A stretch of 64,000 bases of DNA from Strigops habroptila (taxonomy: Eukaryota > Chordata > Aves > Psittaciformes > Psittacidae), in contig NW_022651105.1 of assembly GCF_004027225.2 (NCBI RefSeq), forward strand, positions 620,924-684,923. Reading direction: 5' to 3'. The notes under the pieces were generated by a model that saw nothing but the letters and a program-made list of their open reading frames with translations, was not told the origin of the DNA and did no database searches. The translations under genes were made by a program, and so were the position numbers. Positions 11,565 to 57,400 of this stretch are shown piece by piece (within the stretch, counting starts at the first letter, position 1; each line of letters begins with the position of its first letter).

Positions 11565-14500
11565 TCACCGGTGCTGCTTCTTGTGCCGCAGGATCTCGGT
11601 GGGGGTGAAGGTGAAGTCCTGCTGGCAGATGTCACAGTGGTAGGACCTGTGGAGGGCTGAGGTCTTGGATGAGCTTTCGGCTGCTTCTTCTGGGGGGGCT
11701 GTGGAGAAAAACAGGGATGAGAAGCAGATCAGAGCAATCGTGAGGAGAAGGACTTGGGGTGTTGGCGCTTCAGTGTGCGCTTGAGCCCAGAAACCCCACC
11801 GTGTGCTGGGCTGTGTCGAAAGGAACGTGACCAGAAGGTCCAAGGAGGTGACCCTGCCCCTCTACTCTGCTCTGGTGAGACCCCACTTGCAGCACTGGCT
11901 GCAGTTCTGGTGTCCTCAGCACAGGAAGGACATGGAGCTGTTGGAGCAAGTCCAGAGGAGGCCACAAGGATGAGCAGGGAGACAGGGTGAGAACATTGGG
12001 GCTGTTGGCCTGGAGAAGAGAAGCTGCGTGGAGACCTCAGAGCAGCTTCCAGTGTCTGAAGGGGGCTGGACATGGGACCTTCATCAGGGACTGGAGCGAT
12101 AGGACAAGGGGTGATGGGTTTAAACTGGAACAGGGGAAGTTCAGGTTGGATCTAAGGAAGAAGTTCTTCCCTGTGAGGGCGCTGAGGCGCTGGCACAGGG
12201 TGCCCAAAGAAGTGGCGACTGCTCCATCCCTGGCAGTGTTCAAGGCCAGGTTGGACAGAGCCTTGGGCAACATGGTCTAGAGGAAGGTGTCCCTGTGCCC
12301 ATGGCAGGGGGTTGGAACTGGATGATGTTAAGGTCCTTTCCAACCCAAACCGTTCTCTGATTCTATGCAACCAAAGCTCTGCAAGACCCCCAGGTCATCA
12401 CACCCCTGAAACCTGGCTCACTGCCACCCCTCTCCTTGGTCACCCATAGAGCAGAGTCATCAGCAGGGCTCCCTGCAGGAAAACCCAGGCTGGCTGTCAC
12501 CAACTGTCCCTATTTTAGGGAGGGAAACTCACCCTCGAAGGGACGACAAGAGCTTTCATGGCACATCCGCTCCAGGGGGGTGAAGGGCATGTGGAGGTCG
12601 CAGTGGGGACACGTCCAGAAGCTCCGCAGGCAGTCGCTGTAGAGGTCTGTGTCCATCTGTGGGGTACAAAGGGGATGCTCAGAGGCCTGGAGGGTGGCAG
12701 GAGGAGCAGCAGGGCGGCAGAGGGAGGTAACTCACAGCCAGGCAGTTGTAGGTGAGGAAATCAGTCACCCTGTGGCCTCCTTTCACCTCGTCAGGTGCCA
12801 TCTCCATGCCCTGGAAGAGCCCCGGGAGCTGGGGAGCCGCAGCAACCATCTGAGGACCAATGTAGAGGTTCTGCTGCTCCAGGCCAGTGAGCTGGCGCAG
12901 GCGGTACGGCACCTATGAGGGGACATGGGGACATCAGCTCCAGCTCCCCCCAACTCCCTGCCCAGCCTCCAAGGTGCTGGGTATGGGTTAGAGCCACCTG
13001 CACTGTGGTCACAAGGGGCATCAAAGCTGGCAGAGGGCCTGGAGCACAAGTCTCATGGGGAATGGCTGAGGGAATGGCAGGGTTTAGTGTGGAGAAGGCT
13101 CAGGGGGGACCTTATCACTCTCTATGACTACCCAAAAGGAGGTTGTAGTGAGGTGGGGTCGGTCTCTTCTCCCAAGGAACAAGTGATAGGACAAGAGAAA
13201 ACAGCCTCAAGCTGCCCCAGGGGAGGTTTAGATGGATACTGAGAACAATTCCCTTCCCCAAAGGGTGCTCAGGCATTGGAACAGGCTGCCCAGGGCAGTG
13301 CTGGAGTCACCATCCTTGGTGACAAACCACGTAGACAAGGCCCTCAGTGCCATGGGTTAGCGGTGGCCTTGGCAATGCCGGGCTAAAGGTTGGATTTGAT
13401 GAATCTAAAGGTCTTTTCCAACCTGGTGGCTTCTCTGATTCAGTGCTTCACATCACCTCCATCTGCAGGAACTCCAGCAGCCCCTGGCTCAGCACGGACA
13501 TATCCCTGTTGCTCGGCCGACGGCCCAAATCCTCTTCCCGGTTTTCCAGCAGCTGGTGGAGGAGTTTTTCCCAGGCAGAGCGGAGCTGCAGGGCCGTGGA
13601 GAGCAGGCGCACGGCAGAGTCCCCGTCTGGGATGGTGACCTCCAGCCAGCCATCGGCCACCAGCCGGGCGCAGTCCGCGCTGGTGTCCAGCGAGCGGGAG
13701 AGGAGCAGGAGAGCCTGGAGGAGCAAACGCAGCCCCTGTGGGGTGAGGAAGGCTTCCAGAGGGCTTGGAGAGGAGAAAGAGGAGGGTGAAGGGCTCACCT
13801 GTAGGGCTGGCACCCGCACGCAGTTCACCAGGTAGGGCTTGTTGGTCTCCAGCAGCGAGACGAAGGCGAGGAGCTGGTGGTGGCGGCTCAGCCCCTCCTC
13901 AGGGTCTGCAGGGACATGAGGGGTGGCAGATGCATCCCAAGCTCTCCCCATCCCTTGGGATGTGCCGACCTCCACAGCCAGCAGCGCCTTCATCCCACGG
14001 GAAACAAAGCCGAGGAGAAGCAGAGCCAATTCCTCTGGGATTGAGGTTGTTCTCACCTTTGGCCCCACCGCGCTCTCCTTTCTTCTTGTTATGGAGCAGC
14101 TCCGGGCTGGTGGCGAAGACAGAGGTGGGATGAGGCACGACACCCTGCTTGGTTTTGGTGTGGAAGATCTGCAGCAAGAGGAAAACACGTGTTGAGGGAG
14201 AGCAGGAGGCTGCTGAGGACCCCGGGATGGGGACAGGGCAGGGGGTAGGACCTGCTCCGAGTCCTTGCGGCTACTGTTGAACTGGTCGGGCAGAGCCAGC
14301 TGAGGGTAAAGGCCCCGGCACAGCACCAGCTTGAGCAGGGCGAGCTGGGAGGAGGACAGGGCCGAGCTGGACACGGCCTGGAGCTCGGCCACGTTGTGCC
14401 GGAGCTTGAACTTGACATCCTGCAGGCAGAGAAAGGGCGTCAGGGGCCCGGCCGGCTGCATCCCGCCTCCCAGAAAGGGTGCGGGGATCACCTGGATATC

Positions 14501-17500
14501 GATGCTGTGCTTGCCCTTCCCATGGGAGCCACCATCCTTCTCCTCCTCGTCGCTGGAGGAGGCGTCTGCTCCATCCTGCAGCCGCAGCACCTTGCGCTTC
14601 CGACCCTCTGTCTCCCTGTGGGAACGCCAGAGGCGGTGCAGCTCCCGGCGCTCCCGGTGCCGGCTCTGCCGGCTGTAGCTGTCGCTGGGCTGGTTGGAGG
14701 CTTCCTCCAGCAGTTGGTGGTCTCGAAGCAGCTCCTGGGGTGGGGGGACAGGGTGGTTGAGCCCCCACAGCCACAAGATGGGCAGGTTGGGGGCGCAGGG
14801 GCGAATTCCAAAGGCAAATCCCACCACTTGGCAGGGTCCGGTCCTACCTGGAACTGGCGCCGCAGGTTGGCAGCCTCATAGAGCCGATGCTCCTCCAAAC
14901 CCCGCCGCCGGCACCACTTCCGAGAGCTGCCACCACGCTCCAACTTCACCTGCACCGGGACAACCCCCGCTCAGCCCCCGGCAGGGCCACAGCATCCCTC
15001 CTGCACCCCCAAACCCAGCCCTACACGCCACCCCAAAGCAGAGCTTCCCCTCCAACCCCAAACGCGTGTCACCCCTCTCCCGAGGCAGGAATCCCACCTG
15101 GACCCACTCGTTGAAGATGTTGAGCAGCGTCAGGGGGTCTCCGTGGGGGCTCTCGAGGGGCCGCCGGGCCGTGGCGCAGTCGGGGTTGGGGTGTGTGGGG
15201 CGCAGGAAGGGGGACGGGACGCTCAGCACCGCTGCCACCGTCAGCGTGGGCTCGGCCAGGCCAAACAGGGTGCCCAGCACCAGCATCTTGCCTGGGGGTG
15301 AGGGCAGGGTGGGCAGCGAGGGTTGAGGAGACACACCCCCCCCCACTCCACACTCCTCACACCTTCAAAGGGGTGCTCTGTGTTACTCACCCACCACCAC
15401 GTCCACGGGCAGCTGGGCCAGAAGGTTCCCGATGGGCGTCAAGTGTTCAGCCTCATCCAGGGCTCCCTGCTCCTTCAGGTACCTCATGGCTGTCTCCAGG
15501 CTGGAGGAGGGAGGAGGCTCCAGGAAGGGGAAGGTCCGGGGGTCACCCAGCCCCATGCTCTTCAACTGGAAGAGAAGCACACATAGAATGAGCCCAGTGA
15601 CGATGGGAAGCGTCTGGAGCTTCACAAAGCCCCCCAAGAGACATCCCACCCCCCGGCGCTTGAGCCACATCCCCAATCCCACACTTGCCTGGCCGGGTTT
15701 CCCCTCTCTGATCCCCCCAATCTCTACTGAGGAAAGCCCCCCAGGACCAGAGGGATCCCCAACGTTACCTGCAGCACCAGAGCATCCAGAGCTACCCGTT
15801 GGATCTCGGGCACAGGGTAGGGGGAAAAGGCATTGTAGTCGGATTCGGCGTAGAGCCGGTAGCAGATGCCGGGGCCGGTCCTGCCGGCGCGGCCCTTGCG
15901 CTGCTCCGCGCTCGCCTGGCTGATCCAGAACTCCTGCAGCCGCTGGAGCTTGCCCTGAGGGTCGTAGCTCATCTCCTTCACCTTCCCTGCAGGGAGCAGG
16001 AGACAAGGAGCAGCTCAGGGCTGCAGGGAGGCAGGAGGAAGTTGGTTTCACCCCCCAGCAGAGAGAGACCTCAGCGGGGCTTTTACCTGAGTCGAGGACG
16101 AAGCGCACCCCGTCGATGGTGACCGAGGTCTCGGCGATGTTGGTGGAGAGGATGCACTTACGGACACCGGGAGGGGGAACATCAAACACCTGGAGAAGGA
16201 GAAACGATGGTGGCACGGCCAGCTCCAGAGAGCAGAGCAGCCCACAGAGGAGGGAGGTGGCACCCCAAGAGCCCCCACAATCAGGGGGAGCTCTGGGAGT
16301 CCAGAGAAGGGCCATGGAGCTGCTGCGAGGGCTGGAGCAGCTCTGCTCTGGAGACAGGCTGAGAGAGCTGGGCTGGGGCAGCCTGGAGAAGAAAACGCTC
16401 CTTAAGGGGAGACCTTAGAGCAGCTCCAGTGCCTAAAGGGGCTCCAGGAAACCTGGAGAGGGGCTTTGGACAAGGCATGGAGGGACAGGACAAGGGGAAT
16501 GGCTTTAGAGGGGACATTGAGATGAGCTCTTAGGCAGAAATTCTTCCCTGTGAGGGTGGTGGGACACTGGAATGGACTGAATGGAGAAGCTGTGGCTGCC
16601 CCATCTCCGGCAGGTTGGACACAGGTGCTTGGAGCAAGCTGCTCTAATGGAAGGTGCCCCTGCCCGTGGCAGCTTTAAGGTCCCTTCCAACCCAAACCAG
16701 TCTGTGGCTCCCTGATTCTCCACAGTGCCAAATTCCAGCCAATCCCAGGGTCACCCCTTCACCCACCTTGTCCTGCTCTGCCACGGAGAGGGTGCTGTGC
16801 AGCGGGAGCACGATCCAGCGCTGGGTACACGTAGCATAAGTCTGTGCTGCCTCCAGCACGGCGCCGATCTCAGCCACCCCGCTCAGGAACACCAGCAGGT
16901 CCCCTCGTTCCTCGGGCGGGTACTTGTGGTCGATGGCCTGCATCACCCTGAGGTACGGCATCGGATCCAGGCGCTCCCATTTCCCTGCCTTCCCCGCCGC
17001 AGCCGCTTCTTCCCTCGCAATGGGTTGGTAGATGACCTGCAGGAGCAGAGGGGAAGAGCGATTCACGCCTGCCCCACGCCGGGATTCATCCCAGAGATCC
17101 CCCTCCAGCCTCACCGAGATGGGGAAGGTCCTTCCAGGCACCTGCAGCACCGGAGCATCCCCGAAGTACCTCGAGAAAAGGGGGATGTTGATGGTGGCCG
17201 ACATCAGCACCAGCTTCAGGTCGGGCCGGGCGGGAAGGAGCCGCCGCAGGACCCCCAGGAGGACGTCACCGTGGAGGTGCCGCTCGTGGACCTCGTCGGC
17301 GATGAGGACGTGGTAGCCCGGGAGCGCCGGGTCCCGCTGCGCCTGCCGCAGCAGCAGCCCCTCGGTCAGGAAGAGCAGGCGGGTGGCGGCGGAGCGGGTG
17401 CTCTCGAACCGGATCTGGTATCCCACCTGCAGCGGGAGGGAACGCGGCTCCAGCCAAGGCAAGTCGGGTACAAGGCGGGGGGCCATTGGAAGACAATTGG

Positions 17501-28800: not shown

Positions 28801-31800
28801 CTTCACCTCCCAGCTCTCGGCCGCGGGCGCTGGCTCTGGCTCCTTCTCCTCCCAGCGGTTGTCGTGCATGCTGCAGGGGGAGATTCCAGCCGCTGGGAGA
28901 CTCCACCGGGAACAGAGCCCCCGGAGCCCCCCCCCCACCTCGGGACACAACCGACCTGTAGGACTTGGCCCCGAGGCCCCGGCCCCGGCCCCGTGGCTTC
29001 TGCTGGGGCAGGAACTCGCCCAGGGTGGGGGGTTTGGGAGCCGGGCGCCGGAGCTCCTCCCTCGAGCCCGAGTCCCAGGCGGGAGCGGCCGCGGAGCCCT
29101 CCAGGAACCTGGAAACAAAGCGGGACACGGTGACACCGGGACACGGGTGGCAATGGGAGATGGGTGACACCGCGATGAAGGTAACAATGGGAAACGGGTG
29201 AGACCAGGATGCAGGTAACAATGGGAGAGGGGTGACACCGGGATGAAGGTAACAATGGGAAACGGGTGAGACCAGGATGCAGGTAACAATGGGAGAGGGG
29301 TGACACCAGGATGAAGGTGACAATGGGAAACGGGTGAGACCAGGATGCAGGTAACAATGGGAGAGGGGTGACACCGGGATGCAGGTAACAATGGGAGAGG
29401 GGTGACACCGGGATGAAGGTGACAATGGGAAACGGGTGAGACCAGGATGCAGGTAACAATGGGAGAGGGGTGACACCAGGATGAAGGTGACAATGGGAAA
29501 CGGGTGAGACCAGGATGCAGGTAACAATGGGAGAGGGGTGACACCAGGAGACAGGTGACAATGGGAGACAGGTGACAACAGGACATGGGTGACAACTGGA
29601 GATGGGTGATAGCGATCGATGGGCGACAATGGGAAACAAGGGGAGATGAGTGACACTGAGACAAGGGCAACAATGGGAGAGGGGTGACACCAGGACATAG
29701 GTGATGCTAGGACAGGGGTGACACCAGGACAGGGGTGACACCGGGATAGGGGTGATGCTCAGACATGGATGACACTAGGACATGGGTAACAATGGGAGAT
29801 GGGTGACACTGGAACAAAGGTGATGCTGGGACATGGGTGACAGTGGGAGACAGATGATGCTGGGACACGGGTGACAATGGGAGATGGGTGACACTGGGAC
29901 AAAGGTGATGCTGGGACACAGATAACAATGGGAGATGGGTGACACTGGGACAAAGGTGATGCTGGGACATGGGTGACAGTGGGAGATGGGTGACAGTGGG
30001 ACAAAGGTGATGCTGGGACATGGGTGACAGTGGGAGATGGGTGACACTGGGACAAAGGTGATGCTAGGACATGGGTGACAGTGGGAGATAGATAATGCTG
30101 GGACACGGGTGACAGTGGGAGATGGGTGACACTGCGACAAAGGTGATGCTAGGACATGGGTGACAGTGGGAGATAGATGATGCTGGGACATGGGTGACAA
30201 TGGGAGATGGGTGACACTGGGATAAAGGTGATGCTGGGACATGGGTGACAGTGGGAGATAGATGATGCTGGGACACGGGTGACAATGGGAGAAGGGTGAC
30301 ACTGGGACAAAGGTGATGCTCGGACATGGGTGACAGTGGGAGACAGATGATGCTGGGACATGGGTGACAATGGGAGATGGGTGACAATGGGACGAAGGTG
30401 ATGCTGGGACATGGGTGACAATGGGAGATGGGTGACAATGGGACGAAGGTGATGCTGGGACATGGGTGACAATGGGACACGGGCGACGCCGGGACACGGA
30501 TAACACCATCCCATTCCCTACATGCTGTCGGACTTCTCGGCGTCCCACTCGCGCCGCCACTGCCCGCCGGGCTTGCGGTGCCGCGCCACCCGCTCCCGGT
30601 CGATGCGCTCCCGCTCCTGCTTCCAGCGCAGGTACTCGGCGCGCTCCCGGCCCGTCATGGACAGCGTCATGTCCCCGGCGCCCGCGTGGCGGCCCTGGGC
30701 AGCAGGACAGGCTCGGATCCCATGGGAACAGCCCCGGGAATGGCGCGGGGGGGTGATGGGGACACACGTACGGGGCTCGGCCACATCCGGTCCCGCTCCA
30801 TCCCTGTCTTGACCTTATCGAAGTCTGGCCCCCCCCAGTTGCGGCCGTGGCGGCGGCTCCCATCCCTCCGGTCGGAATCCTGGGATGGGCCCGAGCGGCG
30901 AGGGTCGTCCAGGAAGTTCCGCACCGGGTTCTTCTCCGGGAGCCCGTCCTGGGGGAGAGAAGGAAAGGGGAGGGAAAGGGGAGGGAAAGGGGAGGGAAAG
31001 GGGAGGGAAAGGGGAGGGAAAGGGGAGGGAAAGGGGAGGGAAAGGGGAGGGAAAGGGGAGGGAAAGGGGAGGGAAAGGGGAGGGAAAGGGGAGGGAAAGG
31101 GGAGGGAAAGGGGAGGGAAAGGGGAGGGAAAGGGGAGGGAAAGGGGAGGGAAAGGGGAGGGAAAGGGGAGGGAAAGGGGAGGGAAAGGGGAGGGAAAGGG
31201 GAGGGAAAGGGGAGGGAAAGGGGAGGGAAAGGGGAGGGAAAGGGGAGGGAAAGGCCCCCCCCCCCCGCTCACCCTCTGGCTCTGCTCGTACTCCGCGATC
31301 TTCTCCATCTCCTCATTCATGCGCTCGATGTTCTGGCGCCGGCGCTGCTCCCACTGCAGCACCCCGAAACCCCCCCTTTGTACCCCAAAACGCAACCAGA
31401 AGCACCCCAAAACCCCTCTTTGCACCCCAAACCCACCCTTTGCACCCCAAAACCTACCCAGAGGCACCCCAAAACCTACCCAGAGGCACCCCAAAACCCC
31501 ACCAGCTGCACCCCCAAACCCTGCCGCCCCCCCCCCCCCCAAGCACCCACCTTGGAGGCCTGGCTGGGGCCGGCGCTGCCCCTCGCCACCAGTTTGACCA
31601 GTCCCCGGCCCCGCGGCCGCCAGTCCCCGGCGCTGGGCCCGGCCCCCTCCCAAGCGGGGTCACCGGGGGGGTGTCCCCGGGGGGGGCGGCCGCTGGGACG
31701 GGGCCCGGGGGGCCTGGAGCCGCGGCCGAGCCGGGGGGCCCCCGGCGGCTTCTTCTCTTTCCCCGGGCGCTGCTCCTGCACCGGGGCAGGCGGGGGACAA

Positions 31801-33093
31801 TGCGGGGGGGGGGGGGGGGTCAGTAGGACACCCCCCACACACACACCTGGGGGGTCCCCAATGTCCCCAACTCACCTGGGTGGCACCGGAGGGGTCCCGA
31901 GCCCGGTGCAGGGTGGTCACTGCCACCCCCTCCTGCTCAGCCTTCTTGCGGTCCTCCTCGATCTCCTGTTGGGATGCGGGAGGCGGGGATGAGGCGGGAT
32001 GCGGTGGGATGCAGGGATGAAGGCGGGATGTGGCGGGATGCAGGAATACAAGCGGGATGCAGGGATGATTTGGGATGCAGGGATGAAGGTGGGAGGCAGG
32101 AATACAGGCAGGATGCAGGGATGATTTGAGATGCAGGGATGAAGGCAGGATGCAGGGATGAAGGCAGGATACAGGGATGATTTGGGATGCAGGGATGATT
32201 TGGGATGCAGGGATGAAGGCAGGATGCAGGGATGAAGGCAGGATGCAGGCAGGAGGCAGCGATGATTTGGGATGCAAGGATGATTTGGGATGCAGGGATG
32301 ATTTGGGATGCAGGGATGAAGGCGGGATAAACCCCCCCCAAACCACATTCCTATGTGCATTTTGTGGGGGTGAAGGATGGGATGAATCCAACCGATGCCC
32401 TCCTTGCACCACACGGAGCCCCTGCCCGCCTGGAGCCAGAGATTCATGGGATGCCGGGATCGGGGAGGCTGGAAGAGGCAACCTTTGGCTGGATAAACTC
32501 TTCCCAACATCCCACCTGGATGGGACCGAGCGCACCTGGTACCGCCGGATGATGGCCTCGTTCTTCCTGCGCAGCGCCGCGATGCGCCGGTCCAGCTCCG
32601 CGTCCTTCTCCTCCTTCGAGCGCAGGTCCAGCGCCGCCGACTGCCGGGAGCGGAGCGGGATGAGAGCGGGGAACGGAGCCACGGACCCGAACCGGAGCCA
32701 CCGAGCCCGAACAGGAGCCACGGACCCAAACCGGAGCCACCGAGCCCGAACCGGAGCCACGGACCCAAACCGGAGCCACCGAGCCCGAACCGGAGCCACC
32801 CGAGCCCGAACCGGAGCCACCCGAACCGGAGCCACGGACCCAAACCGGAGCCACGGACCCAAACCGGAGCCACCCGAGCCCGAACCGGAGCCACGGACCT
32901 AAACCGGAGCCACCCGAGCCCGAACCGGAGCCACCCGAACCGGAGCCACGGACCCAAACCGGAGCCACTGAGCCCGAACCGGAGCCACGGACCCAAACCG
33001 GAGCCACCGAGCCCGAACCGGAGCCACCCGAGCCCGAACCGGAGCCGCCCGAACCCGAACCGGAGCCACACGAGCCCGAACCGGCCTCACCAT
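25869..33093 (-). CDS. CCDC9: CCDC9, coiled-coil protein linked to the exon junction complex
   Basis: CCDC9 is a nuclear RNA-associated protein reported with exon junction complexes. Coding exons: 33093-33091 (ATG only), 32640-32536, 31965-31876, 31775-31551, 31353-31273, 30948-30772, 30694-30522, 29108-28956, 28870-28807, 28349-28139, 27999-27922, 26933-26874, 26077-25869. Phases join throughout, giving about 542 residues (human 531). Family blocks: the N-terminal helix SAALDLRSKEEKDAELD, EIEEDRKKAE, an RG-rich stretch, RRQNIERMNEEMEKIAEYE, NPVRNFLDDPRRSG, GDMTLSMTGRERAEYLRWKQ, HRKPGGQWRREWDAEKSD, PPTLGEFLPQQK, MHDNRWEEKE, then a Glu/Asp tract around QWEDVSEED. The last three exons do not look like human CCDC9; I accept them on consistent phase-1 junctions, total length and the poly(A) site. 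Otherwise the 28349 exon would read through to a stop at 27966. Confidence 0.88.
26095..26470. repeat. purine-rich tract in the last CCDC9 intron
   Basis: About 370 bp of almost pure A/G on the plus strand (ggaaagg, gaggaag units), irregular. Confidence 0.85.
26985..27905. repeat. minisatellite in a CCDC9 intron, inverted copy of the 25.3-kb array
   Basis: Roughly 40 units of 20-25 bp on 'ccctttagctctggggtcc' with frequent variants. The units are the reverse complement of those at 25245-25690. Confidence 0.9.
28370..28790. repeat. minisatellite in a CCDC9 intron
   Basis: Units such as 'ggggtaccagaggggtattg', 16-30 bp, with a G run at 28430-28443. Confidence 0.85.
29130..30500. repeat. two related minisatellites in a CCDC9 intron
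   Basis: Positions 29130-29570 hold units with 'aacaatgggagaggggtgac'. Positions 29570-30500 hold units of roughly 50-60 bp with 'acatgggtgacagtgggaga' and 'gacaaaggtgatgctgggac'. They fill almost the whole intron between the 30694 and 29108 exons. Confidence 0.9.
30960..31255. repeat. near-perfect 11-bp repeat in a CCDC9 intron
   Basis: About 26 head-to-tail copies of 'aaaggggaggg' with almost no variation, all-purine on the plus strand. The period of 11 leaves all three plus frames open. Confidence 0.95.
31966..32345. repeat. minisatellite in CCDC9 intron 2
   Basis: Units of about 17-30 bp on 'gggatgcagggatgatttg' and 'gatgaaggcaggatgcag', just upstream of the 31965 exon on the minus strand. 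Confidence 0.85.
32665..33085. repeat. minisatellite in CCDC9 intron 1
   Basis: Units of about 20-39 bp alternate 'cggagccacggacccaaac' with 'cggagccaccgagcccgaac'. They begin 6 bp past the ATG-only first exon and fill the intron. Confidence 0.9.
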
Positions 33094-35291: not shown

Positions 35292-35311
35292 CCACAAGCC
35301 CGAACTTGTTC
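35292..35311 (+). promoter_or_regulatory. BBC3: p53 response element upstream of BBC3
   Basis: Two half-sites abut with no spacer. CCACAAGCCC keeps C, WW, G and YYY but has two purine mismatches. GAACTTGTTC fits RRRCWWGYYY perfectly. The layout parallels the main human PUMA p53 site as I recall it: a CTGCAAGTCC half-site directly followed by one built on ACTTGTCC. It lies 130 bp before the exon 1 donor. Confidence 0.7.
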
Positions 35312-35454
35312 GGGGGGGGGGGGTCTGGGGGGGGTGGTAGGGGCGTGTCGGTGACGTCACAGAGGGGCGGGGCCGCGCCCCGAGCGGGCAGCACAGACCG
35401 AGCCGGTGCCGGCGCGACCGCGCGGTTCATGCGGCTGAGGTGAGTGCGGGACGG

Positions 35455-35700
35455 GGCGCCCCATAGACACCCCATAACTGCCCCACAGCACCCCATAGAC
35501 ACCTCATAGCTGCCCCATAGACACCCCATAGCGCCCCATAGCTGCCCCATGGCACCCCCTAACTGTCCTATAGACACCCCATAGCACCCCATAACTGCCC
35601 CATAACCAGCCTATAGCCACCCCATAAACACCCCAATAACCACCCCATAACCACCCCCCAAACACCCCATAACCGCCCCATAAACACCCCCCCCACCCGC
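35455..35700. repeat. minisatellite in BBC3 intron 1
   Basis: Units of about 10-16 bp on 'ccccatagcaccccataact', starting 15 bp after the exon 1 donor. Confidence 0.85.
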
Positions 35701-35769
35701 CCGTGGGGCAGCACGTGGGGGGGGCAGCAGGAGGGCGCGGCGGGGATCGAGGGTCACTCGTGGCGGGGG

Positions 35770-36240
35770 GGGGGGGTGTGGGTGTCCCCCGGTCTCCTCG
35801 TTCCCTCCGGTCCCGTTTCCCCTGTACCCGTTGTCCTGTTCCCGGTCCCATTCCCGCTCCCCCGTTCTCGTTCCCATTCCCGGTCCCGTTCGCGCTCCCA
35901 TTCCCCCGTTCGCGTTCCCGGTCCTATTTCCCCGTTCCTCTTCCCGGTCCCGTTTCCATTCCTTTTCCCGGTCCCGCTCCCGATCCCGTTCCCAGTCCCT
36001 CTCCCAGTCCCAGTCCCTCTCCCAGTCCCGGTCCCGTTCCCAGTCCCGATCCCGGTCCCCCGTTCCCAGTCCCGGTCCCATGGTCCCATTCCCGGTCTCA
36101 TTCCTCCGGTCCCGTTCCTCCCTCCCCGTTCCCATTCCCATTCCCATTCTCGATCCCGTTCCCCCTTCCCATCCGATTCCCATCCCCTTCCCATCCCTTT
36201 CCCGTCCCATTCCCGTCCCGCTCCCGCCGCCTCGGGCCGT
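35770..36240. repeat. CCCGTT / CCCGGT minisatellite in BBC3 intron 1
   Basis: Irregular six-base-based units ('cccggtcccgttcccattcc'). A similar-looking array lies in PPP1R14A intron 1. Confidence 0.85.
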
Positions 36241-36422
36241 GCCCGGTTTGTTTACAAACACGCCCGCTCCCTGGGGCGCCCCCTGGCGGGCGCGGCGCCC
36301 CCCGCACCCGCGTGTATTGGGGGGGGGGTCTAAGGAAGGGGGGGGGTGGTTTGGGGGTGGCCTCCCCCCCCCCCCATTGACACACACACACACCCCCCCC
36401 CCCGCAGAGCCCCCCGGCAGCC

Positions 36423-37795
36423 ATGGCCAGACCGCTGCGGGAACGGAGCCCCCCCGCGCCCGCCCTGCCCGCCCCTGCCGCCTGCCTGCGCCGGGGGGGC
36501 CGCGGCGCCGTGTGCCCCCCCCGCGCCCCGCCGCTGAGCTGCGCGTGTCCCGGGGAGCCCCCCCCCGCCTGCGGCATCTTCCGCTGCGGGGCACGGGGGG
36601 GGGACCCCCCCGGCGCCACCCACAGCGGGCACGGTGAGTGCCTTTACCCATGGGGGGGTCCCGCTGCCCATGGGGGGGTCCCTCTATTCGTGGGAGGGGT
36701 CCTTTTACCCATAGGGAGGGTCCTTTTAGGTTGGGGGGGTCCCTTTACCCATGGGGGGGTTCCCTCTACCCTTAAGAGGGGGGTCCCTTTACCCATGTGG
36801 GGGGGTCCCTTTACTTGGGGGGGTTCCCTCTACCCTTAGGAGGGGAGTCCCTTTACCCGTAGGGGGGGTCCTTTTAGGTTGGGGGGGTCCCTTTACCCAT
36901 AGGGGGATCCCTCTGCCCGTGGGGGGGGTCCCACTGCCCCTGTTACAGGTGACAAGTCAGAACATGCCCCCCCCCAATGTATTTGGGGGTTCCTATTGCT
37001 CCCCCCATACGCTGCCTACTCCTGACCCCCCCCCCCCCCCCCCCACTCTCTCCAGGCGAGTTCCCCCCCCCCGGCTGCCGGGGAGCACATGGGGCCCCCC
37101 CCCCCCAATGGTGGGGTCCGGGGGGGGGTCCCCAACGGGCGGGAGGTGGGCGCCCGCCTGCGCCGCCTCGGGGACGCCTTCCAGCGCCAGCACGAGCTGC
37201 AGGTGCGGGGGGGGCACCCCGAAACGGGGGGGGGGGGCACCCCGACACCACCCCCCATTGTCCCCAGTGTTATCCCCCTATTCCCAGTGTTATTCCCCCT
37301 CCTTTCTGCTCAAGGGAAAGGAAGGGGGGGCCCTAACTTGGGGGGGCACCCCAAAATTCCCACACACTCCCCCCCCCCCCCCATAGCCCCATTCCCAATG
37401 GGATCCTCCCTCCTTTCTGGTCACCAGAGGGAATGGGGGGGGGGGGGGGGGGGGCGGTTATTTGGGGGGGTTGTTATGGGGGGGCTGCTATTTGGGGGCT
37501 GTTATTGGGGGAGGCTGTTTTGGGGGGGGCAGGCACCCCAAACTGGGGAGGCTGTTATTTGCGGGGGGGGCACCCCAAAATCCGACATCTCCCCCTATTC
37601 CCGGTGTTCCTCCTATTCCCTCTTGCACACCACAGGGAAGGAGGGGGGTTGGTTTTGGGGGTGGGGAACCCCCATATTAACACTGCCCCCCCCTTGCAGC
37701 GGGAGCAGCGCGGTGGCGGCGGTGGCGTGTTTTGGGGTCCCCTCTGCCGCCTCATCTCACAGTTGTTGGGAGCCATCTACAACCTGCACGAGTAG
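36423..37795 (+). CDS. BBC3: BBC3 (PUMA), BH3-only pro-apoptotic protein
   Basis: PUMA binds BCL-2 family proteins at mitochondria and triggers apoptosis after p53 activation. Three coding exons are seen: 36423-36633, 37056-37202, 37700-37795, about 150 residues (human 193). The start is MARPLRERS in an excellent context (gcagccATGG); human PUMA also begins MAR. Exon 2 encodes EVGARLRRLGDAFQRQHE, fitting the BH3 rule: V, L, L, G-D, F at the required spacing (37146-37181). Exon 3 encodes REQRGGGGG and the hydrophobic tail VFWGPLCRLISQLLGAIYNL, comparable with the membrane-seeking end of PUMA. Exons 2 and 3 join in phase 0. Exon 1 ends in phase 1, so it does not join exon 2 in frame unless the C12 run at 37095 is one base too long or another exon exists. 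Position between CCDC9 and SAE1 is the human order. Confidence 0.85.
36640..36945. repeat. minisatellite in the second BBC3 intron
   Basis: Units of 'ggggggtccctttacccat', 20-30 bp. Confidence 0.8.
37203..37699. other. BBC3: last BBC3 intron
   Basis: G-rich intron with long C and G runs (for example 37437-37455) and short repeated 'ggctgttatttggggg' units. No other feature is seen. Confidence 0.6.
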
Positions 37796-37799
37796 GGCC

Positions 37800-38060
37800 C
37801 GGCCTGCACCCCAAAACTGCCGGGACCCCGGAACCTGGGTCCTACCTGCACCCCAAAACTGCTGGGACCCCGGAACCTGGGTCCTACCTGCACCCCAAAA
37901 CTGCCAGGACCCCGGAACCTGGGTCCTACCTGCACCCCAAACCCTGGGTCCTACCTGCACCCCAAAACTGCTGGGACCCCAGAACCTGGGTCCTGCCTGC
38001 ACCCCAACCCCTGCCTGTGTCCTGCCTGCACCCCAAACCCTACCAGCACCCCAAGGCTCA
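37800..38060. repeat. tandem repeat in the BBC3 3' UTR
   Basis: About five units of roughly 42 bp with 'ctgcaccccaaaactgc' and 'ggaacctgggtcctacctgc', starting just past the stop codon. A second set of 'tatataggggtgtacat' units follows at 38190-38400. Confidence 0.9.
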
Positions 38061-38455
38061 GGTCACCCCAAGGGGTGTCACTGCCCTCCCCCCCCCCAAT
38101 TCCTATTTATTTAACTTATTGGGGTGCATTTTGGGGGCGGGGGGGGGGGGGGGCACTTCCAGGTGTCCCCCCCCCAGCCCCGGTGGGGGTGCAGGTGCTG
38201 TATATAGTGTATATGGGGCTGTATATAGGGTGTACAGTGTATATAGGGGTGTACAGATGGAGGGGTACATGGGGGGGGTGTATATAGGGGTGTACATGAA
38301 GACTGTATATAAGGGGTGTACATAGGGGTGTACATATGGGCTGTACATGGGTGTACATAGGGGCTGTATGTGGGGGCTGTATAGAGGGGGGTACCTATGG
38401 GGGTACATTTGGGGGGGGGCATTTGGGCTGTTCCTGGGTTTGTACCTTGGTTTCC

Positions 38456-38461
38456 AATAAA
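38456..38461 (+). terminator. BBC3: BBC3 polyadenylation signal AATAAA
   Basis: AATAAA 660 bp beyond the BBC3 stop, followed by G/T-rich sequence. Confidence 0.7.
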
Positions 38462-39032: not shown

Positions 39033-42000
39033 TTAGGGGGGGCCCAGACACTCCACGGTGCCGTTGCCTCTGATGCCATCGAAGAAGAAGAAGTTGTTGT
39101 GGGGGGGGTCGCGCTGGGACAGGGCCTGGGGGGGGGGGGGAACACACACCCCCAGATTGGGGGGGTCAGGATTGGGCCCCCCCCCCCCCCAAAGGGGGAT
39201 TTTGGGGACCAAGGGGGGGTCTGTGCCCTGTAGACCCCCCCAGAACCAGCCCATACCTTGACCACCTCCTGGCCCAGGACGCCTCCGACCACAGCACAGA
39301 CCGGAGCCATCTCGGAGAAGCAGTAACTGGAATGGGAAGGATCCAATGGGAAAACCTTGGAATGGCACCAAGTGTGTCGTGTCCAACCCCCCTCCCCCCC
39401 CCCCATCTCCCCCAAAACACTGAGGGGCCCCCCCAAAAAGGAGCTTTGGTGCCTCCGCCCTGATAAAAATAAGCCTGTCCAAATGCCGGCTGGATGTGCC
39501 ACATTCCCAGCGGGAAGCGTGTGGGGACATGCAGGAAGGGCTGGGAAGTCCCGGGACCCCCCCTCTCCGGGCTGGGGTTGAGGCCAGGACTCGGTGTCAC
39601 CCCAAGGCCAAGTGTGGAGGGGATTCCTCTCCAGGTCAGGCACCGGAGAGGCCCTGGGGCAGGATGATCCCATGGGAATCATCGTCATTCCCACCTCACC
39701 TGACGAAGTCATCCGGCAGCACCTCAGCGCCCACCCCCAGCGCCTCCAGCACGTCGCTGCGGATCTGGAGCAGCAGCTTCGAGTCCTCAGCGTAGCTCTG
39801 GGGGGATGGATCCCGGCCGTTATCCGTCCGGAATTTCAGCAGCACTGGGACAAGGGAGGGAGCGGAGTCACCCCGCTGCTGGCAGCATTCCCAACGGCTC
39901 TGCCGGCATTGGGAGAAGCCCTTGGTCAAACCTTCAACTTGCTGCGTTTGGGAAAGCTCCGGGTGCTCCCAGCTCTTCCCAAGGGAAGAGGCAGGCTCTG
40001 GAATGCCATGGCATTCCCTGGATGTTGCCACCAAAAGCTTACAGCAAGGGACGCGAGCAGAGTCCCCAAAACCCCTCCAATCCAACCCAAAACCACTGGG
40101 ATTCACCAGCAGATCTGAGCTCCCGTGGCCAGCCGGGAAGAGCAGCAGGAATGGGGAGCAGGGAATGGGAAGCAGGGAATGGGAAGCCGGGAATGGGACC
40201 CTCACCTTGGAGCAGGAAGTAATCCGGGGCCGTGCGTTTCAGCGCCGCTGCCGCCTTCTCCCCGCTCCAGTCCACGGCCAAAGCCTCCTTCAGGGGGCAG
40301 AAGACGAGGCGCTGCCAGGACACGGGATGAGAAGGATGCATGGAAAAGGCACCGGGTTTTCCCAAGGGGATGAGCCCAGGATCATCCTCAACTTCCTCAT
40401 GGAACCATGGAATGATTTGGGTGGAAGGGACCTTCAAGCTCATCCAGTCCCAACCAACGGGCAGGGACACCTTCCATAGGGCAGGTTGCTCCAGCCTGGC
40501 CTTGGACACTCCTCATCCAGCCCTTCTCCATCCAACCCATCCCAGTGTCCCACCACCCTCCGAGCAAAGAGCTTTATCCCAATATCCCATCCAACCCTTC
40601 CCGTTGGAAGCTCTTCCTCCTCACCCCACCCCTCTATCCCGTGTCCAAAGCCCCTCTCCAGCTTTCCCGGAGCCCCTTGAGGCTCTGGGAGCTGCTCCAA
40701 GGTCTCCCCGGAGATTCTCTTCTCCAGGCTGGACAAGCCCAGCTCTCAGCCCGCCTCCATGGCACTGTATCCCTTGGGATCAGAGCTGGGGATGGGATTT
40801 ACCAAGCACAAACTCAGGAGTCTTTGGGAAAACCAGCTCTGGAGCGGGAGGTGTTCAAGGAGCTGAAGGTCTCCCATAGGGACACAGGGAAGAGCTCAGG
40901 GCACACGGGGCTTTCGCATCTCCCAAACGGATCCGGAAGAATTCCAGGCTTGGAATCACACTTCCCCCCCCCCCTCAAATGGCAGGAGGGTGACAGCTGC
41001 TTCCATTGGCATCCCAGGAATATTCCCAGCCCTTCCGAGGGGAAGCTGCACCCCCAAGTGAGGCAGAGGGACACAAAGGGCGGCTCAGCTGCTTCTCCTC
41101 ATGGCCAGGGGGGGATTTCCACTCCTCCCACCACATTCCAGCTGGGAGAGGGAAACAATGCCCGGCCGGAGGCATTTCCATGTGAAAAGGTTTGGCTTCG
41201 GAGCAGATTCCACCCCCAAGACATGGAAAACCTGCTCCGAGGGAGCTCGGTAACAACAACGCAGCTTTCACAGCCTGGAAAACTGGGTGCACCCCGCCCC
41301 TTTCCCATCAAAACCAGTAAGGAATTGCCTCACCCCAGTATGGGAAGCAAGCAGCAGCCGGGTGGGAGCACCCAGAGCTTGGAGGAGGTGTCCAGTGGGA
41401 TTTTCCCACTCACCTTCTTCACCATGGTGGTCTCAGAGGGATCCACTCTGGCTTTCTTGGTGTCCGGCCCGTCCTCCACGCCCGGGCTGGCTTTGGGCAC
41501 TTTGGTTTTCTCCCTATGGAAGTCAAACATGGAAAACCCCCAAGCCTCAGTTGTGCTGCCCCACAGCAAATGATCCTGGATTCATGGAATCATGGAATGG
41601 TTTGGGTGGAAGGGACCTTAAAGCTGCTCCAGTTCCAAGCCAGGGGCAGGGACACCTTCCATAGGGCAGGTTGCTCCAACCTGCTAGGGATGGAGCATCC
41701 AAACCTTCTCCATTCAGTCCAACCCAGGATCATCCTCAACTTCCTCATGGAACCATGGAATGGTTTGGGTTGGAAGGGACCTTCAAGCTCATCCGGTCCC
41801 AACCAAGGGGCAGGGACACTTCCATAGGGCAGGTTGTTCCAACCTGGCCTTAGACACTCCTCATCCAACCCTTCTCCATTCAACCCATCCCAGTGTCCCA
41901 CCACCCCCCGAGCAAAGAGCTTTGTCCCAATATCCCATCCAACCCTTCCTTCTTCCCGTTGGAAGCTCTTCCTGCTCACCCCATCCCTCCATCCCGCATC

Positions 42001-44842
42001 CAAAGCCCCTCTCCAGCTTTCCCAGCGCCCCTTTAGGCTCTGGGAGCCGCTCAAAGGCGGGAGAACCCCCTCCCTGATCCCGGCGGGAGCAGCCCGGCAC
42101 AAGGAATGTTGTGGATGGCTTCTCCTGAGGGAGCAGCTCCAAGCCCTTGGGGGGGTCCTGCCCCTTCCCCACTCACTCCACAAACTCGTGCTCGCCGAGG
42201 TCAGCGAACATGTAGCCGTGGTAGCCGAAAACGTCGCCGGTGAAGAACTTGACGCTGTTCTTGTGGCAGATGTGGTTGATCTTCACCATCACGTCCCGGG
42301 AGCAGCAGGTCAGGCAGACCTGCAGGTGGGAATGCCAATGGGAATGGTCATCCTCCCCCAGCCCAGATCCCTCCGTGCCGGGTGGAAGGCTCCGGCTTGG
42401 TTATTCCTGGTTCATGAGCAGTTTTCCCTCCTGGCGCAGGTGCCTTCACTCCAGGCACCTCCTAATTTTGGTGGGAATGGATGGGCTGGAGCTAAGTAGG
42501 GATGGTTTTAAACGTGTCTATCCCAGGATACACGGATGGGGGGAGCTCCTCCCCGTTATCCATATCCCCCTCCACAGCTCCTGCCACAGGGAGCTCATCC
42601 ATAGGAGCACACCTGGATGTGCTGCTGTTCCTCCTCCCGCCAGCCTGGAATCCTCCAAGCGCCAGCCCCATCCCATCCCACGGGAAGCAGGCGGAGAGGC
42701 AGGAGCAGCAAAGCACCAGCACGATGAAGAGCAGGGTCAGGAATAAGAGCCCCCAGAAGCACCCCCCCTGCCCCGTCGCACCGCATCGAACTGGGTGAAG
42801 AACTCCTCGGGTTTGGTGTCCACGCTCCCGGCATCAGCTTTGACGTCCACCATGGGGTTGAGGTTCTGCGCCCGCTCCAGAGAGGCCTCGGCACGGTTCC
42901 GGCCCAAGGAACCCGCCGGGATGAGGAACTGAGCCCGGGTGTCCTCTTGGGAAACCTGGAATGGGAGGAAAACAGCGGGATGAGGCTGTGGGAGAAGACC
43001 CTGCAAGCTCCAAGTGGAACTGAGACACAACCAGAGCAAGGAAGAAACCTCTTGGTTGCTTCCCGCTGTTCCACAATCCCCATGGATCCGGAGCTGGATT
43101 CCGGGCTCGCAGCTCCCTCTTGTGCCCGAGGAGACGCCAGGCCATGACCTGGAGCCCATGTTCACGAGGGGGGGGGAACATGTTTGCCACAGGCCTCCAA
43201 GCTCCGGCTCGGGAATTTCAACCCCCCCCCCGGGGCTGGTTAGGGATTGTGCCCCAAAATGGAGCAATCCTGCCCCAAAATGCAGCCGTCCCGCCCCAAA
43301 ATGGAGCAATCCTGCCCCGAAATGGAGCAATCCAGCCCCAAAACGGAGCAATCCAGCCCCAAAATGCAGCCGTCCCGCCCCAAAATGGAGCAATCCTGCC
43401 CCAAAATGCAGCCGTCCCAACCCAAAACGGAGCAATCCTGCCCCAAAATGGAGCAATCCTGCCCCAAAATGCAGCCGTCCCACCCCAAAACAGAGCAATC
43501 CAGCCCCAAAATGCAGCCGTCCCCCCCCAAAACGGAGCAATCCAGCCCCAAAATGGAGCAATCCTGCCCCAAAACGCAGCCATCCCACTCAAAAACGCAA
43601 CTGTCCCTCCCCAGAAAGGACCCGTCCCGCCCCAAAAGGGACAATCCCGCCCCCAAACGGGAACAATTGCACCCCAAACCACGACAGGGACACCCCAAGG
43701 CGGCCCTGTCAAGCCCTGGCGCTCACCTGCTGATGGTCCAGCATGGTCAAGCCCTTGACTCCAGCCAGGATGAGGTTCTTGGCCACCTCCGCTCCCAGCC
43801 CCTTCATCCCCACTAGCAGCACTCGGGAGGCTCTTAACCTGCGGCACAAACACCCCTTTGGGAGAGGGAAAAGAGGGTGCAAGGGGACAAGCAGGCAGGA
43901 AAACCACGGTCCTCAGCATCCATTTGAACACCTGGAAGGGGCAGGAATGGGGCCAGGCTGCAGGAAGGAGCCTTCGAAGCTGGAAAATGACCCCTCGGAG
44001 AGAACAGGGGCTGAGGAAGAGGGTTTCCAGCAGGCAACAAGCAGGCGGGAGCAGGGCATTTGCAATTCCAGCTGGGAATGAAGCCGAAGCTGTTTCTCCT
44101 CCCCACACACCCCCCATTTTCAAGTCCCTATAGAGCTCCTGAGGACCTCCCCAGCAGCTACCCTCACAGAAGCCCCTACACAGCCCCCAGTCACCCCCAT
44201 AAGCGTCTATAGGGTCCATTCACATGACAGGCCCCCCCCCCCGGCCTCTATAGACTCCCTTCACATTTCAAACCCCCCCCCAGCCCCTATAGAGCCCACA
44301 ACAAGCTCCTATACACTGCCATAAAGGCCTCCTAGACCCTCACAAGCTCCTACAAGGCCCCCATAAGCTCCTACAGGGGGTCTCACAGGCTGTGGGGCCC
44401 CAGAAGCTCCTCCAGGCCCCTATAGGACTCCCAGAAGCCCCTCCAAGCCCCTATAGAACCCCCAGAAGCCCCTCCAGACCCCTATAGGACCCCCAGAAGC
44501 CCCTCCAGACCCCTATAGGACCCCAGAAGCCCCTCCAAGCCCCTATAGAACCCCCAGAAGCCCCTCCAGACCCCTATAGGACCCCCAGAAGCCCCTCCAG
44601 GACCCCCAGAAGCCCCTCCTCACGCTGCAGGCCGCCCCTCCACAAGCTCTTAGAGGGGCTCTCACAGGCCGCGGGGTCCCTCAGGGTCCTTCAGCGACCG
44701 CAAGCGCCGCCCCCCCCCCGACAGCCCCCAGCCCCACTGACCGCTTCTGGGCCTCGAGCCCCCAGAGCCGGATTTGCCGGTCATACTGAGCCGCCTCCTC
44801 CTCGCTGATGCCGCCGGGGCCTCCCTCCTCCTTCTCCACCAT
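39033..44842 (-). CDS. SAE1: SAE1, SUMO-activating enzyme subunit 1
   Basis: SAE1 (AOS1) pairs with UBA2 to form the SUMO E1 enzyme in the nucleus. Exons: 44842-44742, 43838-43727, 42955-42782, 42319-42177, 41513-41414, 40311-40206, 39844-39700, 39326-39257, 39125-39033. All phases join, giving 347 residues (human 346). Visible blocks: [40 protein letters not shown] (nucleotide-fold glycines), [63 protein letters not shown]-like [41 protein letters not shown], and the C-terminal [20 protein letters not shown]. As in other SAE1 proteins there is no catalytic cysteine domain, which UBA2 supplies. Exon 1 uses a GTCAGT donor. The gene starts head to head with ZC3H4. Confidence 0.96.
40377..40740 (-). 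mobile_element. CR1 LINE in a SAE1 intron
   Basis: Reversed CR1 3' end from 'ggaaccatggaatgatttgg' to 'tctccaggctggacaagcc'. It is preceded by the tag 'aggatcatcctcaacttcct', also found beside two other copies in this window. Confidence 0.9.
41580..42110 (-). mobile_element. two CR1 LINE copies joined by a shared tag, SAE1 intron 4
   Basis: A truncated CR1 (41580-41723) ends at 'ccattcagtccaaccc'. It is followed by the tag 'aggatcatcctcaacttcct' and a second CR1 (about 41748-42110). The same composite recurs at 56990-57410 in ZC3H4. Confidence 0.9.
43245..43640. repeat. 18-bp minisatellite in SAE1 intron 2
   Basis: About 20 units of 18 bp alternate 'ccccaaaatggagcaatcc' and 'ccccaaaatgcagccgtcc'. 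The period is a multiple of three, so the frames stay open. Confidence 0.95.
44220..44650. repeat. minisatellite in SAE1 intron 1
   Basis: Units of about 30-40 bp with 'cagaagcccctccagacccc' and 'tataggaccccc'. Confidence 0.9.
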
Positions 44843-45418
44843 CGCCGCCACCGCCGCCGCAGCCGCCTCACGGCCGCCGCCGCAGCGCCCCCTGGCGGCC
44901 CGCGCAAACGCCGCGCTGGTACCCGGCGCCGCTCCACGTCCACCGGAGGGGAGAACGAGGGATTCACCTCCCGCTCCCGGAGGGTCTCTTACCCTGCAAC
45001 CCCACGGGAAAACCACCTCGAGCGGCTTCTCTCGCCGCTATAACCCCGCAAGAAGGCGTAAAACCGCTTTTCTTCGTTTGAGGAAACCCCTCGGGAGCCC
45101 TCAAACAAGCATCACCCCCCTACCTAACGATGCAGATGGACTCGTCCTCTCCTCACCTCTTCGGCACTTTTCGTGCGTTCCCGCCATCCCTCGTCAAACC
45201 GCGGTGGGGGGGGTGGGGTGGGTGTGTGTGTATGTGGAGAACGCTCGGCTTTTTCCGGCCTCGCTCGGCTTTTTCCGGCCGCCGTGCGGGGCGCTGCCTC
45301 GGCGCCATTTTGTGTGCCTGCCCGTGGGGCGCGGGGCCGGGCCGGGCCTGGGCCGCCCCCCGCTGTACAGTGACTGTGCCCCCGTTCCCCCCCCCAGCCC
45401 TCCGACACCCCTTTCCCC
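44843..45418. promoter_or_regulatory. bidirectional CpG-island promoter of SAE1 and ZC3H4
   Basis: The two start codons are 577 bp apart and face away from each other, as in human. The interval is CpG-dense. It holds a YY1-like 'cgccattttg' (about 45302) and a direct repeat of 'ctcggctttttccggcc' (about 45245 and 45264). No TATA box is seen. Confidence 0.7.
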
Positions 45419-54400: not shown

Positions 54401-57400
54401 TCCCCTCCCTTTCTCTCTTCCCTTCCTTTCCCTTCCCCTCCCTTTCCCTCTTCCCTTCCCTTCCCTTCCCTTCCTTTCCCTTCCCTTCCTTTCCCTTCCC
54501 TTCCTTTCCCTTCCCCTCCCTTTCTCTCTTCCCTTCCTTTCCCTTCCCTTCCCTTCCTTTCCCTTCCCTCTCTTCCCTCCCCTTCCTTTCCTTTCATCTC
54601 CCTTTCCCTCTTCCCTTCCCTTCCCTTCCCTTCCTTTCCCTTCCCCTCCCTTTCCCTCTTCCCTTCCCTTCCTTTCCCTTCCCTCCCTTCCCTTCCTTTC
54701 CCTTCCCCTCCCTTTCCCTCTTTCCTTCCTTTCCCTTCCCTTCCTTTCCCTTCCCTCCCTTCCTCTCCCCCCCCTCTCCTCCCCTTCCCCTCCCTTTCCC
54801 TCTTCCCTTCCCTTCCCTTCCCCCTTCTTTTCCCTTCTTTTCTCTTCTTTTCCCTTCTTCCTTCTTCTCCCTTCTCTGTCATCCCTTATCCCTTTCACCT
54901 TTCCCCCTCATCTCCTCTTCTTTTTCCTTTCTCCTTTTTCCTTTCCTTCCTTTCCTTCTCCCTTTCCTTTCCTTTCCTTTCTTTCTCTCTCTTTCCTTTC
55001 CTTTCCTTTCCTTTCCTTTCCTTTCCTTTCCTTTCCTTTCCTTTCCTTTCCTTTCCTTTCCTTTCCTTTCCTTTCCTTCCCTTCCCTTCCCTTCCCTTCC
55101 CTTCCCTTCCCTTCCCTTCCCTTCCCCTTTCCCTTCCCTTCCCTCCCCGCTCCAACCCTCCCCCGTTTCCTCTCTCCACAAGGATCGGAATGAGATCCAG
55201 GGGGATGTGTTTCAGGTTTGAACCGAGGCCGTGGCCGTGGCCCCAGAGGAAGAGGGAACAAAGGGATGGGCCGAGGCCGGGGCCGAGGTGGGAGCAGGAG
55301 CGGGATGGGGAAAGGTGGTGGCATGAACGAAGATGACGATTACTACGACGAGGACATGGGGGTGAGCGCCTGTTTTCCTGCTCCCTGCCTCCTGCATGCT
55401 CGAAATCCAGCCCCATTCCCAAGAAAAACCCAAATGGGTCTTCCCAGCAGCCACAAAAGCTGCCCCAGCTCCAAGACCAGCATCTTTCTGGTCTCCAACA
55501 GATCCCTCAGGGGCTTCTCCTCGCTTTTTCATCCCAAATCCCGGTGGTGTTCCCTCGGGGAGACATCCACGTGGGAATTTTCCCTTCTTCCCATGGGATC
55601 TGTTGCTTCCCCTCTCCAATTCCCTACGGACTGATGGGCTGTGCTTCCCGCAGGACGGCGGCGGCGGTGGGAATTACCGCCGGAACGACCACGACAAACC
55701 CCACCAGCAGGCGGACAAGAAGGGCAAAGTGATCTGCAAGTACTTCGTGGAGGGCCGGTGTACCTGGGTAAGGAGTAACCCGGGAGTATCCCCCTGGATG
55801 CATCCCTGGAGCCTTCCCTGAGGCTCCAAATCCAGGCTTTGAGCCGTTTCTAACCAAACCCTGGGCCTGCAAAGCTGTTTTGGAGCAGCTCCTGGGTCCA
55901 AGAGCTGCTCCAGCACGAGCTTCTGGTGATGTTCCTCCTCAGGGCGACCACTGCAACTTCAGCCACGACATCGAACTGCCAAAGAAACGGGAGCTCTGCA
56001 AGTTCTACATCACCGGCTACTGCGCCCGCGCGGAGAACTGCCCCTACATGCACGATATCCTTTGGGATTCGGCCTGGATCAGCCCCGCTTCCACCGCGGG
56101 GATGCACGGGGGAACCTGGCCGAGCGGTTCCTCCTGGGGAAAGGGGGGGGTGCGGAAGGGAAGGAAGGGAAATGAGGGGGGTGGGGGTTTGCTGCTGGGG
56201 TCGATCCAGACGTAGCAGGAACATCCGCTGGGATTTGTTCTCCTTAATCCCGAGCACGGGACTTCCCGTGTAAGCTCTTCCACACCACGGGCAACTGCAT
56301 CAACGGCGATGACTGCATGTTCTCCCACGAGCCGCTCACCGAGGAGACCCGGGAGCTGCTGGACAAGGTACGGGCGGGTGCTGCTGCGCCTTCCCCTCTG
56401 CTTCCCGGCCTCGGGAATGGAGGGAAGAGCTCCCGGGAATCACCGCTTCCTCCTCTCGCCATCCCAGATGCTGGCGGATGACGCGGAAGCGGGGGCCGAG
56501 GACGAGAAGGAGGTGGAAGAGCTCAAGAAACAAGGGATTAACCCCCTGCCCAAGCCCCCCCCGGGGGTCGGGCTGCTCCCAACGCCTCCCCGGCCCCCCG
56601 GCCCCCCAGCGCCAACGTCTCCCAATGGGAGGCCGATGCCTGGGGGTCCCCCCCCGCCGCCCCCCCCGCCGTTGCCCCCCCCAGGGCCGCAGCTGCCCCC
56701 GCCGCTGCACGAGCCGCTGTCCCCGCAGCAGCTCCAGCAGCAGCAGGACATGTACAAGAAGATCCCGTCGCTCTTCGAGATCGTGGTGAGACCCACGGGG
56801 CAGCTGGCGGAGAAGCTGGGAGTCAGGTGGGTGCCACCACGGCCCCCGGGGGGGCTCTTCCCGCTGGGGGCTTGGGTGGGAGGGACCTGGAAGCTCCTCC
56901 AGATCCATGGGCAGGGGCACCTTCCATAGGGCACCCAACTTCCATCCAACCCGTGTCCCACCACCCTCACGGTGAGGAGCTTCTTCAGGGACACCTTCCA
57001 TAGGGCAGGTTGCTCCAACCTGCCAGGGATGGAGCATCCAAACCTTCTCCATTCAATCCAGCCCAGGATCATCCTCAACTTCCTCATGGAACCATGGAAT
57101 GGTTTGGGTTGGAAGGGACCTTCAAGCTCATCCGGTCCCAACCAAGGGGCAGGGACACCTCCATAGGGCAGGTTGCTCTAGCCTGGCCTTGGACACTCCT
57201 CATCCAGCCCTTCTCCATTCAACCCATCCCAGTGTCCCACCACCCTCCGAGCAAAGAGCTTTGTCCCAATATCCCATCCAACCCTTCCTTATTCCCGTTG
57301 GAAGCTCTTCCTGCTCACCCCATCCCTCCATCCTGCATCCAAAGCCCCTCTCCAGCTTTCCCAGCACCCCTTTAGGCTCTGGGAGCTGCTCCAAGGTGGG

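Follow-up and report, generated by a model that had tools for sequence, protein, structure and literature searches.

Gene order and exon structure

The window, that is, the whole stretch of 64,000 nucleotides of kakapo (Strigops habroptila) DNA analysed here, carries the genes DHX34 (−), CCDC9 (−), BBC3 (+), SAE1 (−) and ZC3H4 (+) in this order, as detected by a gene scan of the parts up to 19.9 kb and from 25 kb onwards. DHX34 (11571–15292, minus strand) was recognised by HA2 helicase parts and a DHX34-type zinc finger. CCDC9 (30518–32640, minus strand) is divergent from BBC3. Its N-terminal exons are located at 32640–32536 and 31968–31891, and PF15266 matches at 30700–30518. The CCDC9 region also contains a perfect tandem array with 26.6 copies of GGAAAGGGGAG (30962–31254). 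On the other side, SAE1 (39039–44860, minus strand, nine matched segments) is convergent with BBC3. ZC3H4 (55982–56370, plus strand) was detected by CCCH zinc fingers of the KIAA1064 type, KIAA1064 presumably being ZC3H4. Beyond it, near the window end, the minus strand has a PP1_inhibitor (PPP1R14-like) exon at 62246–62329; we know of no human PPP1R14-like gene beyond ZC3H4. The human order at 19q13.32, which we take to be ZC3H4 (−), SAE1 (+), BBC3 (−), CCDC9 (+) and, further on, DHX34 (+), is the kakapo order turned round. A position between CCDC9 and SAE1 as in human, proposed in a first-pass annotation of this DNA, is borne out by both flanking genes.

The first-pass annotation had placed a bird BBC3/PUMA gene at 36423–37795, with an N terminus MAR, a BH3 helix in the exon 37056–37202 and a hydrophobic tail in the last exon. 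These exons were recovered with GT/AG borders. Exon 2 (36408–36633, plus strand) is coding from the ATG at 36423 over 211 bases (MARPLRERS...SGHG) and ends in phase 1. Exon 3 (37056–37202, plus strand) encodes the BH3 (EVGARLRRLGDAFQ) in frame offset 0. Its core VGARLRRLGDAF, found at 37146, fits the pattern h1-x3-L-x2-h3-(G/A)D-x-h4 and can be aligned to PUMA peptides. Exon 4 (37700–37795, plus strand) encodes the hydrophobic tail FWGPLCRLISQLLGAIYNLHE and ends with a stop codon; it shares 83% identity over 30 residues with a goshawk protein (P0001). An AATAAA at 38456–38461 (plus strand) is a likely polyadenylation signal.

The end of a likely 5′ exon 1 lies at 35429–35439 (plus strand), with the donor GTGAGT at 35440. 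The splice between exons 1 and 2 is supported by the predicted bird proteins P0004, P0011 and P0020, which have matching first residues in a different frame. A second reading frame (35429–36537; 46 residues, beginning with MRLRAPRQPWPDRCG) starts at an ATG in exon 1, upstream of the PUMA start, runs across that start in a frame of its own and stops within exon 2. The matching starts of the same three proteins suggest that this overlapping frame may be conserved.

Candidate regulatory sites

Two sites resemble p53 response elements. The first, CCACAAGCCC GAACTTGTTC, lies upstream of exon 1 (35292–35311, plus strand) and has no spacer, two perfect CWWG cores and two mismatches. The second, TGACAAGTCA GAACATGCCC, is located in intron 2 (36950–36969, plus strand). 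Nowhere else in the 64 kb does a spacerless site combine perfect cores with two or fewer mismatches; both sites are within the BBC3 gene. With this strict criterion, set post hoc once the sites had been seen, two or more sites occurred in none of 3000 local resamples and in 4 of 100 whole-window resamples. A looser pattern yielded 10 sites in the window, fewer than the 17 expected by chance. Allowing spacers of 0–13 bases gave four such sites, two of them outside the gene. The two putative sites have 14 and 15 of 20 bases in common with the published human PUMA element, a likeness that was rejected as evidence since it does not exceed that of other places in the window. Taken together, the sites are only suggestive of a p53 control of the kakapo gene. 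A FOXO-like TTGTTTACA in intron 1 was also rejected: it occurs once, with 0.14 expected, and this was reached in 14 of 100 shuffles. Upstream of exon 1, a perfect CRE palindrome TGACGTCA is present at 35352–35359, the sole exact copy in the window.

Homologs and gene identity

A search of a 5.8-billion-protein set with the kakapo reading across a frame break, described below, gave a best E-value of 1.7e-25. The nine matches of this first search, all from birds, ranged from 1.7e-25 to 1.2e-6. Combined with a second search using a bird profile, 26 proteins were obtained: 22 from 20 bird species, one from a turtle and three others. The turtle protein (P0018, Emydura, E 3e-35 with the bird profile) is named BBC3 and has a Pfam PUMA match. 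Within the window, goshawk P0001 matched exons 2, 3 and 4 with E-values of 2e-14, 4e-12 and 9e-12, against a background of low-complexity spots elsewhere that scored to about 1e-5. BH3 and tail share 80% identity with P0001 over 50 residues, and 24 of the 26 homologs match this stretch at E ≤ 8e-8; the exceptions are P0022 (E 0.13) and P0026 (without listed match).

Seventeen proteins were compared further, after removal of P0003, P0007, P0019 and P0021–P0026, each a near-duplicate, a fusion, a partial or out-of-frame sequence, or a protein without a name. Their mean pairwise identity is 88% in the BH3, 57% upstream and 61% downstream. Six songbird proteins (P0009, P0014–P0017 and P0020) have ILGARLR-LGD-F in common and a tail without the SQLLGAVYNL stretch. 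In its place, most of these six tails have WVAPW-GAAPAAPLAARGGN-like sequences, a changed membrane tail. An AF2 model of goshawk P0001, low overall (mean 57.5, pTM 0.22), has a single helix at residues 130–184 with a pLDDT of about 88–90 over the BH3; the remainder is unstructured. Together with Pfam, in which BCL-2-fold families had no match in the window peptides, this low-confidence model of a homolog is consistent with a BH3-only build with a disordered N-terminal half.

The motif itself does not carry the identification. The window contains two instances of a loose BH3 pattern; 60 Markov resamples contained 1.6 on average and 4 at most. Similarity of the kakapo BH3 to solved PUMA peptides is at chance level. 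For the peptide of exons 3 and 4, PUMA (PF15826) was the sole Pfam family, with 14.7 bits below the cut-off of 26.4. This family is a poor test for birds because 13 of the 17 bird and turtle relatives also lack a match at E ≤ 0.1. At this threshold, the 17 proteins gave PUMA in four cases (best 1.2e-6), Bclx_interact in six (best 0.024) and BMF in two (best 0.054). For BMF (PF15185) and BIM (PF08945), no window-peptide match was listed at E ≤ 10, with filters that remove most weak matches. Pfam does not decide between PUMA, BMF and BIM.

The identification as BBC3/PUMA comes from homologs and neighbours. A different BH3-only gene of the BMF, BIM or HRK type, or a BH3-like stretch arising by chance from GC-rich sequence, would agree with the chance frequency of the loose pattern and with the weak BMF and Bclx_interact matches of some bird homologs. 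It is nevertheless very hard to reconcile with three exons matching, in order, proteins that NCBI calls bcl-2-binding component 3 in five birds and a turtle, and with a location that is the BBC3 position. We consider another gene highly improbable, and a chance BH3 was rejected on the grounds of homologs and neighbours. Three insensitive genome searches addressed a second BBC3 copy. The first gave one extra match, 47 bases of intron sequence (C88); the second, three weak matches with the window itself absent from the list; the third, two further weak matches besides exon 4 of the window. The first-pass assignment to bird BBC3/PUMA stands on the homologs and neighbours. The kakapo locus is very probably the BBC3/PUMA ortholog, most likely a working gene with an error of the consensus sequence in a C homopolymer. 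It belongs to a known kind: an ordinary relative of human PUMA, already half annotated under another name. A limited literature search found no title on bird BBC3, and the main texts of two papers (PMC12954441; PMC8449477) do not name BBC3 or PUMA.

A one-base frame break

As assembled, the gene is out of frame by one base. Spliced at its strong donor (36633), exon 2 finishes in phase 1, but phase 0 is required for reading the BH3 in exon 3. The first-pass annotation overlooked this mismatch. A frame-tolerant alignment to 13 of the 26 relatives, in which the length, not being divisible by three, forces a shift, placed it at 37064 (six homologs) or 37076 (four homologs). Both positions fall within or next to the ten-C run at 37063–37072 (plus strand), the likeliest site of the break. 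The remaining three homologs placed the shift at 37088 (P0009), 37136 (P0015) and 36594 (P0006), and P0004, P0005 and P0011 required further shifts in exon 2. At the kakapo junction of exons 2 and 3 the residues are HGEF, and 12 of 17 relatives show HGEF or HGDF there, so that the joint looks right and the slip seems to be inside exon 3. Frame-restoring splice sites were scanned with GT/GC donors at 36500–36759 and AG acceptors at 36940–37149. For the strong GTGAGT donor, no acceptor in this range brings the frame back. Several weaker pairs do, for example, 36509 with 37056 and 36637 with 37061, but such variants are unlikely.

Exon 3 contains the homopolymers C10, C12 and G9. The Vertebrate Genomes Project paper names the kakapo and describes short indels from the CLR consensus, causing frameshifts, as the commonest errors before polishing; polishing with long and short reads came afterwards (PMC8081667). 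We infer that the assembly analysed is the one of that paper. A consensus error in the C homopolymer is the most likely cause of the break.

If the break were real in the same gene, slippage of the C run would have removed the BH3 in the kakapo, or in this individual, and PUMA would be lost, present as a polymorphism or restored through a weaker splice site. The break is present as assembled and the public protein model P0026 follows it; the kakapo linker and tail are shorter than those of the goshawk; the homopolymers of exon 3 are prone to slip in life as in sequencing; and pairs such as donor 36509 with acceptor 37056 could restore the frame. However, BH3 and tail have kept 80% identity to the goshawk with the key BH3 positions retained, which long-standing decay would not leave, and such indels are the very errors named as commonest before polishing (PMC8081667). 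Harpia offers a parallel: of its two proteins, P0022, a 'splicing factor 1-like' protein from another contig than P0002, exits the BH3 frame after HGEFHPTEDGDHE, and P0002 keeps the frame. A real break is accordingly rated improbable. Its most far-reaching form, with slippage of the coding C10 switching off the PUMA BH3, fixed or polymorphic, in the manner of a contingency-like, homopolymer-gated p53 killer gene in birds, appears slightly less probable still. The consensus error remains the preferred reading.

Naming in public annotation

The locus is already represented in the protein databases. P0026, a predicted 'basic proline-rich protein-like [Strigops habroptila]' of 327 residues, is the exact join of 36423–36633, 37056–37202 and 37700–38325. 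It shares the kakapo splice sites, but exons 3 and 4 are read in the other frame. In contrast to the PUMA reading, no BH3 is visible and the protein continues past the stop of the tail. The unspecific name is probably explained by the frame break, which hides the BH3 from automatic annotation. P0026 scored E 0.61 in the bird-profile search, and its identity rests on the letter-for-letter join. A protein search with P0026 as query (8000 candidates scored) found only itself and no other parrot.

The first-pass annotation had regarded BBC3 as usually missing from bird annotations. The gene is usually annotated, but under another name; BBC3 as a name is absent in 15 of the 20 bird species found, in a census that is incomplete owing to a protein set clustered at 90% and to scoring of the 8000 best word-sharing candidates in the second search. 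BBC3 is used in five species (Phaenicophaeus, Anas, Dromaius, Nyctibius and Larus). The other 15 have different or unspecific names, for example, splicing factor, formin-like, collagen-like, LGE1-like, proline-rich or uncharacterized. The chicken protein is listed as XP_015128536.2, 'LGE1-like'. In Patagioenas fasciata, the model P0007 joins N-terminal exons of CCDC9 to BH3 and tail of BBC3. These genes are on opposite strands in kakapo, and the fusion is likely a misassembly or misprediction.

Proposed function and significance

In mammals, PUMA acts downstream of p53 as a main killer protein, and its mode of action is established. By analogy, we infer transcription, p53 control, binding partners and location of the kakapo protein as follows. 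Damage-activated p53 would switch on the gene. In the product, a presumably disordered N-terminal half would precede the BH3 helix. The helix may dock into the groove of BCL-2-type survival proteins, perhaps also of BAX/BAK, with the hydrophobic C-terminal stretch as a putative anchor at the mitochondria. Mitochondria would then turn leaky, and the cell would die.

Birds retain PUMA, and annotation often conceals its name; this can guide apoptosis and virology groups to the gene to knock out. One-base slips in C and G runs are a simple way for a bird gene to be mistaken for lost. The kakapo slip, if real, would matter for a species that numbered 211 animals after an outbreak in 2019 (PMC9668684).

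Comparison with known PUMA proteins

The kakapo reading resembles BBC3 proteins of birds (Accipiter P0001, Anas P0006, Dromaius P0008 and Phaenicophaeus P0005) and of the turtle Emydura (P0018) in its MA(R/K) N terminus, an (E)LGARLR-LGDAF-like BH3 and an FWG...SQLLGA tail. It differs from them, as assembled, in that exon 3 is thrown out of frame by one base. Compared with goshawk P0001, the linker from VPNG to the BH3 is 10 residues shorter and the C terminus has about nine fewer residues. Human PUMA is similar in gene order and strands, and in the weak match to PF15826. The kakapo BH3 AREIGAQLRRMADDL aligns with REVGARLRRLGDAF of solved PUMA structures, with E-values of 0.6–1.4 that are at chance level when taken alone. 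Unlike human PUMA, the kakapo protein has a glycine in place of the alanine before the BH3 aspartate, and it is shorter.
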